Assembly: GCF_001458775.1 (NCBI RefSeq)
Contig: NZ_CZPZ01000023.1
Coordinates: forward strand, 1 to 64,000
Reading direction: 5' to 3'
DNA from: Candidatus Nitrospira nitrificans
Lineage (GTDB): Bacteria; Nitrospirota; Nitrospiria; Nitrospirales; Nitrospiraceae
Length of the DNA stretch: 64,000 nt
Shown here: positions 52,150 through 63,457 of the stretch, in pieces
Layout of the letters: the number at the start of each line of letters is the position of its first letter
How positions within the stretch are numbered: the first letter of the stretch is position 1
The notes under the pieces: generated by a model
Database searches by the model: none
What the model was told of the DNA's origin: nothing
Seen by the model: the letters and a program-made list of their open reading frames with translations, nothing else
Program-made: the position numbers and the translations under genes

Positions 52150-53346
52150 ATGGGGTTGGGCGAAGGTTTTTATCGAATCAAGCGACTCCCGCCGTACGTG
52201 TTTGCGCAGGTTCAATCGCTCAAGCTTGAGGCTCGCCAGCGTGGGGAAGACATCATTGATTTCGGGATGGGAAATCCCGATCAACCGACCCCGCCTCATA
52301 TCGTCGAGAAAATGATCGAGGCCGCCCGCAAGGCAAAGAATCATCGGTACTCGGCTTCGCGCGGCATCACGAAACTGCGGCATGGGATTTGTGGGTGGTA
52401 CAAACGCAACTACGGTGTTGAACTGGATCCGGAGACTGAAGCGATCGTCACCATCGGATCCAAAGAAGGTCTCGCTCACTTGGCCTTGGCCATGATCGGT
52501 CCAGGCGATGTGGTTCTGACCCCGACGCCGACCTATCCCATCCACATGTACAGCTTCATCATTGCGGGCGGTGAGGTTCGCGGCATCGAACTCCGTCAGG
52601 ATAGCGATTTTTTCGAAGATCTGACGCGCGTCTATCGGCAGACGTTTCCGAGACCGAAGATTCTCGTGATCAACTTTCCCCACAATCCCACGACGGCCGT
52701 CGTGGATTTGGAGTTCTTCAAGAAGATCGTGGCGTTTGCCAAGGAGCACAACGTCATCGTCATCCATGACCTCGCCTATGCCGACCTGGTGTTCGACGGA
52801 TACAAGGCGCCGAGCTTTCTTCAGGTCCCGGGCGCCAAAGACTGCGGGGTAGAATTCTATACCCTGTCCAAGGCCTACAACATGCCGGGTTGGCGCGTGG
52901 GTTTTTGCGTGGGCAATCGAGAGGTCGTCGGTGCGTTGGCAAAGATTAAAAGCTATCTGGACTATGGTATTTTCCAACCCATTCAGATCGCCAGTGTGAT
53001 TGCCTTGAATGGCCCTCAGGACTGTGTCAAGGAGACGGTGTTGCGGTACCAGAAACGCAGGGATGCGCTTGTGGGCGGGCTGAATCGGATCGGCTGGCAA
53101 GTCGCAAAGCCCCTGGCCACGATGTTTGTATGGGCGCGCATCCCCTTGCCCTATCGCCACATGGGATCCTTGGAGTTTTCAAAGCTCTTGCTCAAAGAGG
53201 CAAAAGTGGCCGTTTCTCCGGGAATCGGATTCGGGGAAGGCGGTGATGACTACGTGCGGTTTGGGCTGGTAGAAAACGAACATCGCACCAGGCAGGCCGT
53301 CAGAGGAATCCGGAAAGCCCTCAAGCTCGATGGGGATGAGGAATGA
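52150..53346 (+). CDS. alaC: Alanine-type aminotransferase, AlaC-like
   Basis: A 398-residue fold-type I aminotransferase. [60 protein letters not shown] and the PLP lysine in [16 protein letters not shown] track E. coli AlaC closely. AlaC makes alanine from pyruvate; in this operon it may instead serve aspartate or homoserine-linked metabolism. The frame is open to 51658, but homology and AAGGAAG support ATG 52150. Its stop overlaps hom (ATGA). Confidence 0.86.
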
Positions 53347-54656
53347 GATCGCGCATCGGAATCGGGATCGTAGGGTTCGGGACGGTCGGCACCGGAGTCG
53401 CCAAAATCCTTCTCGATAATGCCGCCCTCATTACGCGGCGCGTCGGCGTCCCGGTCGAACTTGTTCGCGTGGCGGATCTGGATGTCGTCAGGGAGCGTGG
53501 CGTCGCCTTGGCCGCCGGGGTGTTGACGACCGACAGCAGGGACGTTCTGACTGCGCCGGACATCGATATCGTCGTTGAGCTCATCGGCGGATACGATGCG
53601 GCCAAACGCGTCATCCTGGATGCGATCGCGGCCGGGAAGCATGTGGTGACGGCAAATAAAGCGCTCCTGGCGCTTCACGGAGAGGAAATCTTTGACGCCG
53701 CCGTGCGTAACGGAGTGGATGTAGGATTTGAAGCCAGCGTCGGCGGCGGCATTCCCGTTATTCGTGCGTTGACGGAAGGTTTAGCCGGAAATACGATCGA
53801 ATCCATCTATGGCATTATCAACGGGACGTCCAACTATATTTTGTCGAGAATGACCCGTGAGGGGCATAGTTTCGAGGAAGTGCTCACCGACGCGCAACGA
53901 GCCGGGTACGCCGAAGCCGATCCGACCTTTGACGTGGCCGGGATCGATTCGGCCCACAAGCTGGCCATCCTCGTCAACCTTGCCTATGGAACCCCGGTCA
54001 ACTTCAAGGACATCTATACTGAAGGGATTACCAACGTCACGCCGATCGATATCGCGTACGCGAAGCAGTTTGGGTTCACGATCAAGCTGCTCGGCATCGC
54101 AAAACTGGTGGACGGAGAGATTGAGGCGCGGGTTCATCCTACGATGCTCCCCTCGACGTCTCCGATTGCCCAAGTTGAGGATGTGTACAATGCCATCCAG
54201 CTCGTCGGTGATGCGGTCGGTGACGTCGTTCTCTATGGTCGGGGGGCCGGATCCATGCCGACCGGAAGCGCCGTGGTCAGCGACCTCATTGCAATCGGAC
54301 GGAATCTTTTAAAAGGCAGCGCCGGTCGCGTGCCGGTGGCGTCGTTCCAGCCGGATCAGCGACGGCCGCTCCGGCTGCGGTCGATGGAAGAGATCAGCTC
54401 GCTCTATTATCTCCGGTTTACCGTCGTCGACCGACCCGGCGTGTTGGCGCAGATCGCCGGCGAGTTGGGTCGGTGCGGGATCAGCATCTCGTCGATGGTG
54501 CAGCAGGGGCGCCGTGAAGGACAGACCGTGCCGATCGTCATCAAGACACATGTGGCGAAGGAGCGGGATGTCCAAACCGCGTTGCGGGAAATCAATCGAA
54601 AGGCGTTCGTCTCCGAGCCGACGACGCTGATTCGTGTCGAAGGCAAGGATGAGTGA
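53343..54656 (+). CDS. hom: Homoserine dehydrogenase
   Basis: A 437-residue monofunctional homoserine dehydrogenase. The NAD(P) motif is [14 protein letters not shown], the catalytic region has [36 protein letters not shown] and [20 protein letters not shown], and an ACT domain closes the protein ([20 protein letters not shown]), suggesting feedback control by threonine. It converts aspartate semialdehyde to homoserine. thrC starts 3 bp after its stop. Confidence 0.96.
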
Positions 54657-54659
54657 TCG

Positions 54660-55718
54660 ATGAATCCTTGGCGCGGAGTGATCGAGGAGTACCGTAAATT
54701 CCTTCCCGTGACGGAAAAGACACCAGTGGTCAGCCTGGGAGAGGGCAATACCCCTCTGATTCGGGCCACGAGATTGGCTCAAGCCATCGCCCCAGGAGTT
54801 GAGCTCTATCTGAAGTTCGAGGGGGCCAATCCGACCGGTTCCTTCAAGGACCGCGGCATGACATTAGCCATCTCGAAGGCGGTGGAAAACGGCGCGCGGG
54901 CCGTGATGTGCGCGTCGACCGGCAACACCTCCGCCTCGGCCGCCGCTTACGGCGCGCGCGCGGGGTTATCCGTTTTCGTGTTGATACCAGCCGGCAAGAT
55001 CGCGATGGGGAAGCTGTCCCAGGCGATGATGCATCAGGCCACGGTGATCCAGATTGAAGGCAACTTTGATCAGGCCCTCGCGCTCGTCAAGGAGTTTTCG
55101 GCGACACTGGCCATTGAATTGGTGAACTCGGTGAATCCCTTCCGGATCGACGGGCAGAAGACGGCGGCCTTTGAGGTGTGCGATCAACTTGGCGGGGCCC
55201 CGGCGCTTCATGTGTTGCCGGTCGGGAACGCGGGAAATATCACAGCGTATTGGAAAGGGTACCAAGAATATCGTGCGGCCAATCAGATTGCGAAGGTGCC
55301 CCGCATGATGGGATTCCAAGCCGCCGGCGCGGCTCCGATCGTGTTGGGCCGGGTCGTCGATCAACCACAGACCATCGCCACGGCCATTCGAATCGGCAAT
55401 CCCGCCAGCTGGTCTTCGGCAGTCAAGGCGGTTGAGGAATCGGCGGGCGCGATCGATCTGGTGACCGATGAGGAAATTCTCCAGGCCTATACCATGGTGG
55501 CGGCAACCGAAGGGGTTTTTTGTGAGCCGGCTTCCGCCGCGTCTGTCGCCGGCGTCGCCAAATTGCATCGAGCCAGGGTTCTACAAGAAGGAGAGACGGT
55601 CGTATGTACGTTGACGGGGCATGGTTTGAAAGACGCCGATACGGCAATCGGTGTGTCCAAACAACCGCAGACGGTCAAGGCGACGCGCGAGGACGTGGCC
55701 CGGCTGTTGAAAGTCTGA
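54660..55718 (+). CDS. thrC: Threonine synthase
   Basis: A 352-residue threonine synthase of the short type. The PLP lysine is K63 in [19 protein letters not shown], followed by [20 protein letters not shown] and the phosphate-binding [18 protein letters not shown]. It makes threonine from O-phosphohomoserine, so a homoserine kinase is needed; no thrB is in the window. It lies directly upstream of the ApgM-like gene. Confidence 0.95.
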
Positions 55719-55734
55719 GAGACGTGTGGATCCT

Positions 55735-56943
55735 ATGAAATATGTGATTGTGCATGCCGGTGGAATGGCTGATCACCCGCAAGAGGAACTGGGCGGTAGG
55801 ACGCCGCTCCAAGCGGCTGCGACTCCCCATCTCGATCGTCTGGCGCAGAGCGGAGAGCTGGGTCAGCTGCTGATTCCAGCCGACGGGATGCGCCATGGCG
55901 GTGGATTGATCGGAACGGCGATTCTGGGATATGACCCTAAAAAGTTTTATCCAGGCCCTGGACCGCTTGAGGCCGCGAGTTTGGGCGTGTCCGGGACGGA
56001 GCAGGACGTCGTGTACCGATGCACGATGGTCACCGTGGCGCCGGAGAGCGGGAAGGGCGGTGAGATCAAAAAATTAGGTCCACACGTCATCATGGATGAT
56101 GGGACGGCCGGGCTGATCGAAACCGAAGAAGCCCGTGAATTGATCGAGGCGATCAATGAGCAGCTCGGTTCGGAGACCATCCAATTCTATCCCGGGGCGG
56201 GTCATCGCCATCTGATGGTATGGGTGAAGGGGAAGCCGCGAGCGATCTGCACCGATCCGCAGACGATACTTGGTCAATCCATCGCGGATGCCTTACCGAA
56301 AGGCGATGGAGCCGATATTCTGCGCAAGTTGATGGATGCGGCCTATTTCATCTTGCGCGATCATCCTCTCAACGAGGAACGGATAGCCGCGGGGAAGAAA
56401 CCGGCCAATTGCATCTGGCTCTGGGGCGAGGGGCGAGCGGTCATGTGGCCGAGTTTGGTTGAGAAATACGAGGTCACGGGGGCGGTCGTGGCCACCAACG
56501 ACGTCCATCGCGGGGTCGGGATCTGCGCAGGTCTGGATGCTGTGGATCCTGAGCGGCTAGAAGGTGGTGATCTCCATACCAAGGCGACCGTGGCGTTGGC
56601 GGAATTTGCCAAGAGAGATTTTGTGTATGTGCATGCCAAATTGGCCGATGAGGTGATACACGGCACTGACATCAAAGCCAAAGTTCAGGGGATCGAAGAG
56701 TTCGATCGTCATCTCGTCGGCCCGTTATTCGAAGGCTTGTCTAAACAAGGCCCCTATCGTTTTCTGGTGATCTGCGATCATACCGCAGGAATCGAAGGCC
56801 CGGCGTTCTACGCGTTTGGTGAAGGAGGCGGAAAGGGATCAGAGGCCGTCGGCCGCCGATTCACCGAGGCGGATGCTTTCGCAGCAAACATGCCTGCCCG
56901 CGACGCCACCAAGTTTGTCATCAAGTTTTTCTCTAAAAGCTGA
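55735..56943 (+). CDS. ApgM-like (cofactor-independent phosphoglycerate mutase family) protein lacking its nucleophilic serine
   Basis: A 402-residue member of the ApgM/TIGR02535-type family, in which a subgroup encoded with threonine genes has been proposed as homoserine kinase. The family body is clear: [49 protein letters not shown] and [16 protein letters not shown]. However the opening D-G is A-G-G (G9 where the metal-binding Asp is expected), the GSDV(A/G)N motif has become GGGLIG (G56 for the nucleophile serine), and the late histidine motif (THT) is absent. The classical mutase reaction seems impossible. Position between thrC and lysC suggests a threonine-pathway role. Confidence 0.8.
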
Positions 56944-56948
56944 CGGCT

Positions 56949-58172
56949 GTGGCGCTGATCGTTCAAAAATACGGCGGAACCTCGGTCGGCACGATCGAGC
57001 GAATCCATCGCGTCGCCGACCGTGTGGCTCACGCGCAGCGGGAGGGAAATCGGATCGTCGTCGTCCTCTCGGCCATGAGCGGCGAAACAGATCGGCTGAT
57101 CAAGCTGGCGCATGAGGTGACGTCTTCTCCCGATGAACGAGAAATGGATATGCTGCTCTCGACGGGTGAACGAGTCACTATCGCCCTGCTCGCGATGGAG
57201 TTGCGAGGGCGAGGGGTGAATGCCCGATCCTTTACCGGCCGGCAGGTCGGCATCATCACGGACAGCGCCCATACCAAAGCGAGAATCGCGCGTGTGACGG
57301 CGGATCGTATCCGCGAGGCCCTGGACCAAGGAGTCGTTCCCGTTGTGGCCGGGTTCCAGGGGATCAATGAGCGGTCGGACGTGACCACGCTCGGACGAGG
57401 AGGGTCGGATCTCTCGGCTGTGGCACTGGCGGCGGCCTTGAAGGCCGATCGCTGTGTCATCTTCACGGACGTCGACGGAGTGTATACGGCGGATCCCAAC
57501 ATCGTGCCGGCGGCGAGGCGGATCGAGAAGATCGCGTATGAAGAAATGCTCGAAATGGCCAGTCTCGGCGCGAAAGTGCTTCAGACCAGATCGGTGGAAT
57601 TCGCGGCCAAGTTCAATGTCCCCGTCGAAGTGAATTCCAGCTTCAAAGAAGGAAAGGGAACGCTCGTGACGAAAGAAGATACGGACATGGAAGCGGCGGC
57701 CATCGCCGGTGTGACCGGGGACCGCAATCAAGCCAAGATTACGGTCATCGGAGTGCCGGACAAGCCGGGGATCGCCGCCAGGATTTTCGGACCCGTCGCA
57801 GATGCGCACATCAATGTCGACATGATCATTCAGAATATCAGCCAAGCGGCCTTGACGGACCTCTCCTTTACCGTGCCTCGCGCCGATCTCAAGAAGGCCG
57901 TGCCGCTCATTCAAGCGGTGGCAAAGGACATCGACGCCAGGTCTATCTCAGTGACTGAAGCCATCGCCAAAGTCTCGCTCATCGGCGTGGGCATGCGGTC
58001 GCACTCGGGCGTGGCGGCCAAGATGTTCGAGGTGCTGTCCCGCGAAGGCATCAATATCATGATGATCAGCACATCCGAGATAAAAATCTCTTGCGTCATC
58101 GATGAGAAATATCTTGAACTGGCCATGCGCTCTCTCCACTCGGCGTTCGATCTGGACCAAGCGCAGTCCTGA
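56949..58172 (+). CDS. lysC: Aspartate kinase
   Basis: A 407-residue monofunctional aspartokinase starting at GTG 56949. The kinase domain has [40 protein letters not shown] and [20 protein letters not shown]. Two ACT domains follow ([40 protein letters not shown]), the site of feedback by lysine and threonine. It phosphorylates aspartate, the first step of the lysine, threonine and methionine pathways. Last gene of the alaC-hom-thrC-apgM-lysC operon. Confidence 0.96.
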
Positions 58173-58372: not shown

Positions 58373-58555
58373 ATGAGCAATGGCGATCTGAACTGGATTG
58401 CGAACTTCATATGGGGGATCGCTGACGATGTGCTGCGCGATCTCTATGTGCGTGGTAAATATCGCGACGTTATCCTGCCGATGACGGTCCTTCGTCGGTT
58501 AGACGCCGTATTGGAGCCGACCAAGCAGGCAGTACTCGATATGAAGTCCTCGTGA
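58373..58555 (+). CDS. hsdM: Type I methyltransferase HsdM, N-terminal piece
   Basis: A 60-residue frame with the conserved HsdM beginning (LNWIANFIWGIADDVLRDLY, YRDVILPMTVLRRLDAVLEP, TKQAVLDMKSS). It stops at TGA 58553-58555. In relatives the protein continues directly into the next frame, after ...DMKxS-L. The two frames overlap by GTGA (58552-58555). Either a one-base deletion has split hsdM, or the subunit is made as two coupled chains. ATG 58373 is taken over GTG 58367. Confidence 0.82.
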   Translation: MSNGDLNWIANFIWGIADDVLRDLYVRGKYRDVILPMTVLRRLDAVLEPTKQAVLDMKSS

Positions 58556-60516
58556 ATAAGGCCAAGATCGTTCATCAAGATCCGGCGTTGCGGCAGGCAG
58601 CCGGTCAGGATTTTTATAACACGTCCAAGTTTACTCTTCGTGATCTCAAGGCCCGTGCAAGTCAGCAACAGCTCAAAGCTGATTTCGGGGCCTACCTGGA
58701 TGGTTTTTCTCCCAACGTCCAAGACATCCTGGAAAAATTTGAATTTCGAAACCAAATTCCACGCCTCTCAAAGTCCGATGCCCTCGGCACGCTGATCAAC
58801 AAGTTCCTCTCGCCGGACATCAACCTCAGTCCCAATCCCGTCAAGAACCCTGATGGATCGGTGAAACATCCGGGCCTTGATAATCATGCGATGGGGACGA
58901 TCTTCGAAGAGCTAGTCCGGCGATTTAATGAAGAGAACAATGAAGAAGCCGGCGAACACTGGACCCCGCGCGACGCCGTGAAACTGATGGCAAAGCTCAT
59001 CTTTCTGCCGATTGCTGATCAAATTAAGTCTGGGACGTATCTGCTCTACGACGGCGCTTGCGGAACAGGCGGCATGCTTACGGTGGCGGAAGAAACGCTT
59101 CAACAACTGGCCGCTGAACATAACAAGAAGGTCGCAGCGCACCTGTATGGGCAAGAGATTAACGCCGAGACGTATGCTATCGCAAAAGCTGACTTTCTGT
59201 TGAAGGGTGAAGGCGAGGCGGCAGACAACATCGTCGGTGGACCGGAATACTCTACGCTGGCGAATGACGCTTTTCCTTCACGTGAATTCGACTTCATGCT
59301 GTCGAATCCACCGTATGGGAAGAGCTGGAAAAGCGATCTCGAACGTCTGGGAGGGAAGGAAGGGATTAAAGACTCGCGTTTCGTGATCCAGCATGCAGGA
59401 GAAGCCGAGTATTCGCTAATCACCAGATCCAGCGACGGCCAAATGCTTTTCCTCGCCAACATGCTGTCGAAGATGAAGCACAAGACCAAGCTCGGGAGCC
59501 GAATCGCCGAGGTGCACAATGGCTCATCGCTCTTCACCGGAGACGCCGGCCAGGGGGAGAGCAACATTCGCCGCTGGATCATCGAGAACGATTGGCTCGA
59601 AGGCATCGTTGCCCTGCCCCTCAACATGTTCTACAACACAGGCATTGCCACCTATATTTGGGTGCTCGCCAATCGAAAGTCGGCTCATCGCAAAGGCAAG
59701 GTTCAGCTGATCGATGCCACACAGTGGTTTAAGCCGCTTCGCAAGAACCTTGGTAAAAAGAATTGTGAGCTGTCGGAAGACGATATTACGCGCATCTGCG
59801 ACACCTTCATCGACTTCAAGGAAACCGAGCAGTCCAAAATCTTCCCCAACGAAACCTTCGGCTATTGGAAGGTCACGATCGAACGGCCGCTCCGCTTGCG
59901 CGTCGATTTGGACGCACAGAGCCTCTCTGCATTCCGAACGATATGCGAGGAGGAAGAAGAAGCGCCTCTGTCTAACCTTGCGGAGAGAGTTGCCGGTCAA
60001 CTCGGTCCAGGCCCCCACCTCAATTTCAACGAGTTCGTGAAGACAGTCGAGGCCGATGCTGAGAAGCACAACATCAAGCTGACTGGTGCTCGTAAGAAAC
60101 TGTTAAAGGACCAATTGGCTAAGCGAGATGAGACCGCAGCCGAGGTCATCCGCAAGATCCACAAGCCAGGCAAAAACAAACCAGACCCACTTCGCGGCCT
60201 GTTCGAGACCACTATCGATGGCAAATTGTGTGTGACCGAATACGAGCCCGATACCGATCTTCGTGATACGGAGCAAATCCCGCTCTTAGAGGACGGCGGC
60301 ATCGAAGCTTTTATCCGACGAGAAGTCCTCCCCCATGTGCCGGACGCCTGGTACGACGCGGAGAGCGTCAAGACCGGCTATGAGATCAGCTTCACGCGGT
60401 ACTTTTACAAACCACAGCCGCTGCGGTTACTCGAAGAAATTCGAGCCGACATCATGGCATTGGAGAAGGAGATGGAGGGGCTGCTCGGTGAGATCATCGG
60501 GGATACCAGGCGATGA
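58552..60516 (+). CDS. hsdM: Type I methyltransferase HsdM, catalytic body
   Basis: A 654-residue N6-adenine methyltransferase lacking only the first 60 residues found in the preceding frame. The SAM-binding motif is DGACGTGG at 167-174 and the catalytic motif NPPY at 252-255 in FDFMLSNPPYGKSW. HWTPRDAVKLMAKLI is the usual phrase before them. The C-terminal 200 residues are helical and contact HsdS. It begins with GTG within the GTGA overlap. The stop overlaps hsdS by ATGA. Confidence 0.9.
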   Translation: MNKAKIVHQDPALRQAAGQDFYNTSKFTLRDLKARASQQQLKADFGAYLDGFSPNVQDILEKFEFRNQIPRLSKSDALGTLINKFLSPDINLSPNPVKNPDGSVKHPGLDNHAMGTIFEELVRRFNEENNEEAGEHWTPRDAVKLMAKLIFLPIADQIKSGTYLLYDGACGTGGMLTVAEETLQQLAAEHNKKVAAHLYGQEINAETYAIAKADFLLKGEGEAADNIVGGPEYSTLANDAFPSREFDFMLSNPPYGKSWKSDLERLGGKEGIKDSRFVIQHAGEAEYSLITRSSDGQMLFLANMLSKMKHKTKLGSRIAEVHNGSSLFTGDAGQGESNIRRWIIENDWLEGIVALPLNMFYNTGIATYIWVLANRKSAHRKGKVQLIDATQWFKPLRKNLGKKNCELSEDDITRICDTFIDFKETEQSKIFPNETFGYWKVTIERPLRLRVDLDAQSLSAFRTICEEEEEAPLSNLAERVAGQLGPGPHLNFNEFVKTVEADAEKHNIKLTGARKKLLKDQLAKRDETAAEVIRKIHKPGKNKPDPLRGLFETTIDGKLCVTEYEPDTDLRDTEQIPLLEDGGIEAFIRREVLPHVPDAWYDAESVKTGYEISFTRYFYKPQPLRLLEEIRADIMALEKEMEGLLGEIIGDTRR

Positions 60517-61964
60517 TCGCCGACCTCAAACCCTATCCAGCGTACCAAGATTCCGGCGTGTCATGGCTGGGTAATGTGCCGGAGCGCTGGGAGGTACGGC
60601 GGCTCAAGTACTTGCTACGGGAGCAAGACAGTCGTTCTGCAGATGGCAGCGAACAGCTACTAAGAGTGTCTCAATATACCGGAGTGACGAAACGAACTCG
60701 CGCGGATGGCAATGCTGAGCCGGATACTCGGGCCGAATCACTTGTGGGCTATAAGTGTGTGGAGCCAGAGGATCTCGTTGTCAATATCATGCTGGCATGG
60801 AATGGCAGCATGGGTGTCTCACAATTTCAAGGCATTGCTAGCCCTGCTTACTGTGTTTATCGCTTTAAATCGGAGGCACATCCTTGGTACTTCCATCATC
60901 TGCTTCGTTCTCCAGTGTACAAAGGACGAATCAAAGCTGCTTCCACAGGTGTTGTTGAGAGTCGTCTCCGTCTTTACACGGACGATCTTTATCGCCTTGA
61001 AGCTCTTCTTCCGCCTTCTCCAGAGCAAGCCGCGATCGTCCAATTCCTCAATCATGCTGACCGGCGGATCAGGCGCTATATCCAGGCCAGGCAAAGACTG
61101 ATCAAGCTGCTGGAGGAACAGAAGCAAGCCATTATCCACCGCGCCGTCACCCGTGGCCTTGATCCTAACGTCCGCCTCAAGCCCTCCGGCGTCGAATGGC
61201 TCGGTGATGTGCCGGAGCATTGGAGGATTGCGAGACTCAAGGATGCTGCTGCAGTGCAAACGGGGCTCACATTGGGGAAAAACTATAAGGGCGTGAAAAC
61301 AGAGACGCGACCGTATCTCCGTGTAGCCAACGTACAAGTTGGCCGTGTGGACCTAAGGCATATGAAGTGCGTTGATGTTCCTATCGTTGAGGCCAATAGT
61401 GCGACCTTACGGGGTGGCGATGTATTGATGACCGAGGGAGGTGACATCGATAAGCTCGGTCGCGGCTGCGTATGGCAAGATGAGATTCCAGGATGCCTGC
61501 ATCAGAACCATATCTTTGCGGTTCGATGCCGAAAGGATGTTCTGATTCCAGAATTCTTGGTCGGTCTCATAGCTTCAATGCACGGGCGCGCATATTTCCA
61601 GCTCACGGCAAAGCAGACTACCAATCTGGCGTCTACAAACAGCGGTACATTGCGAGCATTCCCAATTTTTATTCCTCCTCTTCCTGAACAGCAAGCCATC
61701 CTCGCGGAAATCGCCAGCCAAACTGCTGGAATAGCTGCCGCCATAGATCGGGCCGAACGGGAGATTGCCCTCCTCCTCGAATACCGCACCCGCCTGATCG
61801 CCGATGTGGTCACAGGCAAGCTCGATGTCCGCGAGGCAGCGGCCAAGTTGCCGAATGAGACAGAAGAACCTAAAGCGCTTGATGCCGACGAAGCACTGGT
61901 TGACGCTGAAGAGGATATGGATAACGAAGACGTCGACGCTGTGTCTGAAGAGGCCGAGGCGTGA
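60513..61964 (+). CDS. hsdS: Type I specificity subunit HsdS
   Basis: A 483-residue HsdS. Two target-recognition domains each start with a similar phrase (WLGNVPERWEVRRLKYLL and WLGDVPEHWRIARLKDAA). Each ends with a conserved helix (PPSPEQAAIVQFLNHADRRI; PPLPEQQAILAEIASQTAGI), which set the spacing of the bipartite recognition site. The last 40 residues are strongly acidic (DEALVDAEEDMDNEDVDAVS), an unusual tail. It overlaps hsdM and, by GTGA, the next gene. Confidence 0.94.
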   Translation: MIADLKPYPAYQDSGVSWLGNVPERWEVRRLKYLLREQDSRSADGSEQLLRVSQYTGVTKRTRADGNAEPDTRAESLVGYKCVEPEDLVVNIMLAWNGSMGVSQFQGIASPAYCVYRFKSEAHPWYFHHLLRSPVYKGRIKAASTGVVESRLRLYTDDLYRLEALLPPSPEQAAIVQFLNHADRRIRRYIQARQRLIKLLEEQKQAIIHRAVTRGLDPNVRLKPSGVEWLGDVPEHWRIARLKDAAAVQTGLTLGKNYKGVKTETRPYLRVANVQVGRVDLRHMKCVDVPIVEANSATLRGGDVLMTEGGDIDKLGRGCVWQDEIPGCLHQNHIFAVRCRKDVLIPEFLVGLIASMHGRAYFQLTAKQTTNLASTNSGTLRAFPIFIPPLPEQQAILAEIASQTAGIAAAIDRAEREIALLLEYRTRLIADVVTGKLDVREAAAKLPNETEEPKALDADEALVDAEEDMDNEDVDAVSEEAEA

Positions 61965-63457
61965 GCACTGATCGCCCTGCAGACTATCTGGTGAGTCTTG
62001 TGCGTGAGCTATGTAAGCTGCCTCACGAGACCGAGTGGATGGAGATCAAGGTCAACAACTCGAACCCCTCTGAGATTGGTGAGTACATCTCGGCTCTAGC
62101 AAACTCGGCAGTGCTTTGCGACAAGCATTGTGCCTATGTCTTATGGGGCATCGAGGATGGCACGAGGAGACTTGTCGGCACTAGATTCGAACCATCGACG
62201 GTGAAGCAGGGCAACGAAGACGTGGAAAACTGGCTCACTCGTCTGCTGCAGCCACAGGTTCCCTTCCGGTTCTACACGTGTGAGATCGAGGGTGCACGGG
62301 TCATACTCCTGGAAATCGACAGACCTCTCCATCAGCCTGTTCGATTCAACGGTGAAGAGTACATACGGGTGGGCTCGTATACAAAGAAGCTCAAGGACCA
62401 TCCTGAGAAGGAACGCGCCCTCTGGCAGCGCTTTATGACAACCGCCTTTGAGGATGGAATGGCCGCGCAGCGATTGAGCGGTGAGGAAATTCTTCAGCTG
62501 CTGGCGTTCCCGTCGTATTTCGACCTTCTTCAGATTCCGCTCCCGCCCAATCAACCTGGTATCCTCGCAGCATTAGAAGCTGATGGTCTCGTTGAGCGGT
62601 CCCAGGGTGGCATGTGGAACATCACAAACCTCGGAGCCATCCTCTTTGCCAAGGATCTTTCGAGGTTCGGCGGTCTTCGGCGGAAGATTGTGCGTGTTGT
62701 CCAGTATGCCGGGAAGGGGCGTATCCTCACGACGAAGGAGCAATCGTTTTCACCAGGCTATGCCGTGGGCTTTGAGGCGTTCATCCAAAGTGTGATTGCG
62801 GTGCTTCCGACGAATGAGGTGATCGAGCAGGCGCTGCGCAAGACAGTGCCGATGTTTCCCCCGCTTGTCATACGAGAAGTGGTCGCAAATGCGCTTATCC
62901 ATCAAGACTTCTCCATCACAGGTGCCGGACCTATGGTCGAGGTGTTTGACGATCGCGTGGAAATCACGAATCCCGGTCAGCCATTAGTTCCGACCGATCG
63001 CTTGCTCGATCAGCCGCCGCGCTCACGCAACGAGAAACTTGCCTCGCTCATGCGACGGTTCGGTATCTGTGAAGAGCGCGGCAGCGGCATCGATAAGGTC
63101 GTATTCCAAATTGAGCTATTCCAACTCCCTGCACCCCTGTTCGAGGTTCCAGGCAATTCTATGCGCGTCGTGCTTTTTGGTCATCGTACCTTGAAGGACA
63201 TGGAGAAGGCGGATCGTATACGGGCGTGCTATCTGCATGCGTGCCTGCGTTATGTGACCCATGAGCCCATGACCAACACCTCGCTCCGGAAGCGTTTTGG
63301 GATCGGCGAGAAGAACGCGGCACTGGCCTCCCGTCTGCTTACTGAGGCAGTCGAAGCTGGGGTGATTCTGATACGCGATCCCGAGGCTGGAACCAGGAAT
63401 AGGACTTATTTGCCATTCTGGATAGCAGCGAGCACGGCGAAGGAAGGAATTGCTTGA
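61961..63457 (+). CDS. AlbA_2/Schlafen-type domain and ATPase protein in the hsd locus
   Basis: A 498-residue protein starting at GTG 61961, inside the hsdS stop. Residues 15-140 are an AlbA_2 (SLFN-like) domain: EWMEIKVNNSNPSEIGEYIS, YVLWGIEDGTRRLVGTRF. Residues about 300-400 carry a HATPase_c_4-like segment (VIREVVANALIHQDFSITGA; EERGSGIDKVVFQIE). A winged helix probably closes it. Such proteins are common accessories in defence loci; some Schlafen-type domains are nucleases. Function here is unproven, but translation coupled to hsdS points to the restriction system. Confidence 0.82.
   Translation: MSTDRPADYLVSLVRELCKLPHETEWMEIKVNNSNPSEIGEYISALANSAVLCDKHCAYVLWGIEDGTRRLVGTRFEPSTVKQGNEDVENWLTRLLQPQVPFRFYTCEIEGARVILLEIDRPLHQPVRFNGEEYIRVGSYTKKLKDHPEKERALWQRFMTTAFEDGMAAQRLSGEEILQLLAFPSYFDLLQIPLPPNQPGILAALEADGLVERSQGGMWNITNLGAILFAKDLSRFGGLRRKIVRVVQYAGKGRILTTKEQSFSPGYAVGFEAFIQSVIAVLPTNEVIEQALRKTVPMFPPLVIREVVANALIHQDFSITGAGPMVEVFDDRVEITNPGQPLVPTDRLLDQPPRSRNEKLASLMRRFGICEERGSGIDKVVFQIELFQLPAPLFEVPGNSMRVVLFGHRTLKDMEKADRIRACYLHACLRYVTHEPMTNTSLRKRFGIGEKNAALASRLLTEAVEAGVILIRDPEAGTRNRTYLPFWIAASTAKEGIA

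Follow-up and report, generated by a model that had tools for sequence, protein, structure and literature searches.

Which protein makes O-phosphohomoserine in Candidatus Nitrospira nitrificans, and what does the ApgM-like gene in its threonine operon do with an altered active site? The window analysed here (the whole stretch of 64,000 nucleotides, from contig C23; the genome measures 4.12 Mb and is 99.8% complete) carries this gene on the forward strand, and its original placement between thrC and lysC is confirmed. Upstream of it, on the same strand, are the genes for an alaC/DapL-like aminotransferase (52150-53346, start approximate), which is the first gene of the conserved operon, for homoserine dehydrogenase (hom, 53343-54656) and for threonine synthase (thrC, 54660-55718; 322 bits against TIGR00260, cut-off 167), and aspartate kinase (lysC, 56949-58172, forward strand) follows it after 5 bp. 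The order alaC-hom-thrC-apgM-lysC occupies 52.1 to 58.2 kb, with no more than about 20 bases between neighbouring genes, and the gene thus has the linkage to hom, thrC and lysC looked for in the TIGR02535 family. In most relatives the next gene after lysC is that of citramalate synthase; in the window a type I restriction-modification cassette (58552-63457) lies directly downstream, encoding an HsdM-like protein of 654 aa, an HsdS-like protein of 483 aa and then a protein of 498 aa with no NCBIfam match. Many genomes outside Nitrospirales (loci L070, L073 and L209, for example) have two unlike threonine-synthase-like genes close together upstream of the ApgM gene, about 35% and 65% identical to the thrC of the window.

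The ApgM-like gene (55735-56943) is a complete open reading frame of 402 aa, running from an ATG at 55735 to a stop at 56943 with no internal stops; an in-frame GTG at 55726 is an alternative start, the ATG being favoured because a Met-Lys start is conserved across relatives. The closest named relatives of its product, mostly from Nitrospira MAGs, are 92-94% identical to it. The protein belongs to the ApgM family (341.4 bits against NCBIfam TIGR00306, cut-off 320) and shares its fold and domain order, the AlphaFold model being predicted with confidence (mean pLDDT 91) and finding its best fold matches in the ApgM structures 3kd8 and 2zkt. Its score against TIGR02535, the "proposed homoserine kinase" family, is 319.1 bits and falls below the cut-off of 446.3. 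A search of the source genome for an intact apgM found no second member of the family. Many genomes outside Nitrospirales (such as G014, G107 and G221) have two ApgM copies, one of them adjoining lysC or thrC; the other is possibly the phosphoglycerate mutase.

According to established work on iPGM and ApgM, the two-metal/phosphoserine centre has seven ligands (D, S, D, H, D, H, H). In an alignment with intact-site relatives the window protein has G, G, D, H, D and H at the first six of these positions, starting from canonical D9 and S56 (D9G, S56G), and has lost the seventh. Three of the seven are therefore gone, the deleted THT segment included, and the protein lacks the full set expected of a catalytically active ApgM. 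The original prediction that the DG, GSDV(A/G)N and THT motifs are all altered holds: DG and GSDVAN carry substitutions, and THT has been deleted. Four of the seven ligand positions are nevertheless still canonical. Shifted motifs as an explanation are ruled out by the alignment with relatives from other orders, in which the ligands stay in register. The loss of the nucleophile serine, also predicted, is real in the window protein but not general, since 69 of 111 distinct Nitrospirales sequences keep this residue, its loss being confined to the sub-clade of the window protein and a scatter of others.

Across the 111 Nitrospirales sequences, which form a single clade (support 100/99), none keeps more than five of the seven ligands: five are kept in 33 sequences, four in 45, three in 26, two in 4 and one in 3. 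None of the 111 retains the THT histidine, and every one of the seven ligands is replaced in some genus, leaving none invariant. Such variation of the losses by genus matches what is expected from a loss of constraint. Unlike ApgM enzymes, the window protein has no complete catalytic centre. A role as the cell's phosphoglycerate mutase was also rejected: a separate gpmA-type protein scores over the cut-off in all eight Nitrospirales genomes tested (in which no iPGM was found), and the gene is missing in genera g11 and g13 of a sister family (f2), discussed below.

Elsewhere in Nitrospirota the site is intact. A further 40 ApgM genes, each from a different genome, all encode the seven ligands; most of them adjoin hom, thrC or lysC, and none is accompanied by ThrB or ThrH over the cut-off. 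The same is true of thirteen earlier ApgM loci, also from genomes without ThrB or ThrH over the cut-off, so that the site is complete in all 53 proteins aligned from other Nitrospirota genomes without a rival homoserine kinase. Strong matches to the ApgM-like protein (E < 1e-40) occur in 189 genomes, only four of which also have ThrB (G007, G117, G129 and G181). In one of these, G181, which belongs to the same class and a different order, the gene in the same operon position (L071:6001-7221) is degenerate, its ligands reading N, S, D, P, D, H, P; this is possibly a second, separate case of a degenerate operon ApgM beside a rival kinase. G117 is a counter-case, having ThrB and yet an ApgM-like protein with all ligands intact, which shows that decay is not obligatory.

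What, then, phosphorylates homoserine in Nitrospirales? No canonical thrB is present in the source genome, as had been predicted: the best match to TIGR00191 scores 46 bits (cut-off 168), and no kinase of the TIGR00938 type was found. A hidden ThrB was rejected, as the GHMP matches read by sequence as IspE (the best TIGR00191 match) and an HddA-like sugar kinase, and an APH match reads as an AmgK-like sugar kinase. Desulfovibrio has a homoserine kinase of the shikimate-kinase type, but several Nitrospirales genomes have a single SKI protein, so that no second copy is common to the order. In a survey of 245 genomes of the phylum (77 from Nitrospirales and 168 others), ThrB scored over the cut-off in 36, none of them from Nitrospirales. 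The original prediction had seen here a gap that the ApgM-like protein must fill. That premise fails, as the source genome has a thrH gene (contig C9:58421-59002; L201:8389-9030). Its product scores 298 bits against TIGR02137 (cut-off 223), lies above the cut-off of two NCBIfam ThrH equivalogs and matches Pseudomonas aeruginosa ThrH (PDB 1rku) with 276 bits over residues 6-201 of 207, that is, over nearly the full length. Of the 77 Nitrospirales genomes, 75 have a ThrH over the cut-off and two have hits that run into contig ends; none of the other 168 genomes has one over the cut-off.

The P. aeruginosa protein moves phosphate from phosphoserine to homoserine and substitutes in vivo for homoserine kinase and for phosphoserine phosphatase, as summarised in PMC1079889 (citing Patte 1999 and Singh 2004). 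By its family, the Nitrospira ThrH is predicted to be a phosphoserine:homoserine phosphotransferase as well, and the genome would thus have an O-phosphohomoserine enzyme other than the ApgM-like protein. The two are not homologous, ThrH being an unrelated HAD-fold protein encoded elsewhere; it is the proposed supplier of a step that the ancestor of the ApgM-like protein formerly supplied. ThrH probably serves serine synthesis too, as no SerB was found over the cut-off in eight Nitrospirales genomes tested; it is also the best SerB-like match in the source genome, whose serine synthesis may depend on it, and it may be kept mainly as a phosphoserine phosphatase.

In the sister family f2, ten genomes from genera g11 and g13 lack any match to the ApgM-like protein, and the four operons read among them (three g11 loci and one g13 locus) have the order alaC-hom-thrC-lysC with the gene cleanly absent. 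A search of genomes without the gene for a shared extra gene adjoining the operon found none between thrC and lysC, and citramalate synthase follows lysC in most. In an eleventh genome (G204, genus g14) the gene is a pseudogene with several frameshifts (L096:10915-11991) between intact thrC and lysC, an open copy being retained in two congeners. ThrH is present in all of these genomes and ThrB in none. The ApgM-like protein is therefore dispensable in the sister family, and neither it nor ThrB is required there for threonine if threonine is made, as the presence of hom and thrC suggests.

In Nitrospiraceae, on the other hand, all 62 genomes surveyed carry the gene, free of inner stops; three of these genomes measure 1.7-2.0 Mb. 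Its median dN/dS (pairwise Nei-Gojobori estimates from 27 pairs, nearly all within Nitrospiraceae) is 0.10, compared with 0.048 for thrC and 0.034 for lysC. The gene is under purifying selection, far below neutral, and evolves faster than its two neighbours. Mean identity in the loop of the GSD motif is 38% in Nitrospiraceae and 65% in the canonical set, while in the cap (residues 96-190) it is 69% and 57%, respectively. K113, E142, Q143 and Q150 do not vary within the clade, as they do among canonical proteins. At the position of canonical R75, 106 of 111 sequences have Pro, and both groups share R158, H159, H210 and R216. The predicted view of a protein that is well kept and not decayed is thus borne out, and the loss of catalytic residues under purifying selection is the combination that marks a pseudoenzyme under selection.

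We consider it likely that the ApgM-like protein is a former homoserine phosphotransferase that was displaced by ThrH and is kept as a non-catalytic pseudoenzyme, this being the option of the original prediction that is left standing by the presence of ThrH and the losses in the sister genera. It would descend from the threonine-operon ApgM proposed as homoserine phosphotransferase in other Nitrospirota. ThrH would have become available in the ancestor of Nitrospirales and taken over the homoserine step, upon which the two-metal/phosphoserine centre would have lost constraint, its ligands being replaced differently in different genera. The gene would then have been broken or deleted in part of family f2. 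In Nitrospiraceae, the family to which the window belongs, purifying selection would have preserved the fold and the cap domain of a protein that stays in the operon without catalysing a reaction. Against this reading stands the fact that the window protein still holds four of the seven ligands. The centre was probably lost because ThrH can do the homoserine step, and the intact gene in Nitrospiraceae probably serves a different purpose; we infer that the protein is inactive and that in vivo the homoserine flux runs through ThrH.

It could be argued instead that the protein is still a homoserine kinase working by a different mechanism, such as direct transfer or the use of one metal, with ThrH only making serine. 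The lack of ThrB, the retention of the gene in the operon in all 62 Nitrospiraceae, the strong purifying selection, the conserved cap residues R158, H159, H210 and R216 and the lack of SerB over the cut-off in the Nitrospirales tested are all consistent with this. A different mechanism, which the original prediction had also offered, is nevertheless not supported and seems improbable to us, as no ligand is invariant across Nitrospirales genera, ThrH is present, and the gene is absent or frameshifted in 11 f2 genomes without ThrB whose operons, where read, keep hom, thrC and lysC. Equally, the ApgM-like protein could be dead and the homoserine kinase a third enzyme, neither it nor ThrH. The homoserine activity of ThrH in Nitrospirales is assigned from its family, and some bacteria have novel homoserine kinases yet to be found (PMC5764234). 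The distribution of ThrH is exactly order-wide, however, as the step needs, and TIGR00191, TIGR00938 and the shikimate-kinase family yielded no candidate common to the order; we give a third enzyme little credence. If the gene were decaying in all lineages, surviving only by chance or because it spaces the operon, this would fit the eroded active-site loops and C-terminus, a dN/dS about twice that of thrC and the broken or missing copies in f2, but such a reading is very improbable given no losses in 62 Nitrospiraceae genomes, a dN/dS of about 0.1, the invariant residues specific to the clade and a confidently folded model.

For the displaced, non-catalytic ApgM-like protein, the most likely present role would be to bind a ligand, or to assist an enzyme of the aspartate family as a structural partner, which is favoured by the kept cap and pocket-side residues, the newly invariant residues and the strict co-location with hom, thrC and lysC. 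More specifically, and tentatively, it could be a pseudoenzyme regulator recruited after the ThrH takeover, the ancestral cap pocket sensing homoserine or O-phosphohomoserine and tuning ThrC, Hom or LysC.

The nearest known system is TIGR02535 and its member BT2402 of Bacteroides thetaiotaomicron, which also belong to the ApgM family, the members of TIGR02535 often adjoining threonine genes in genomes without ThrB. BT2402 differs from the protein described here in keeping its metal (zinc) sites (PMC9765024). It is needed for threonine but failed to complement an E. coli thrB mutant, and the GapMind authors are uncertain whether it makes O-phosphohomoserine (PMC7311316); a gut-microbiome reconstruction names the intact family ThrB2 on the basis of co-occurrence and co-location (PMC9026213). 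No report of the degenerate Nitrospirales protein, or of ThrH in Nitrospira, was found in the literature searched, which included few subscription journals.

The coincidence of ThrH with decay of the ApgM-like protein rests on one clear event, on the stem of Nitrospirales, with G181 as a possible second case. The one lineage with ThrH has lost the centre, and every sampled genome lacking both ThrB and ThrH retains it, which is indirect evidence of selection for the homoserine step. In this way the coincidence indirectly supports the proposal that the intact threonine-operon ApgM proteins make O-phosphohomoserine. Annotating the Nitrospira gene as a phosphoglycerate mutase or a homoserine kinase is probably wrong. 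Its product would also provide a clear natural case of a pseudoenzyme in environmentally important nitrifiers, present throughout one family and missing from some members of the sister family.
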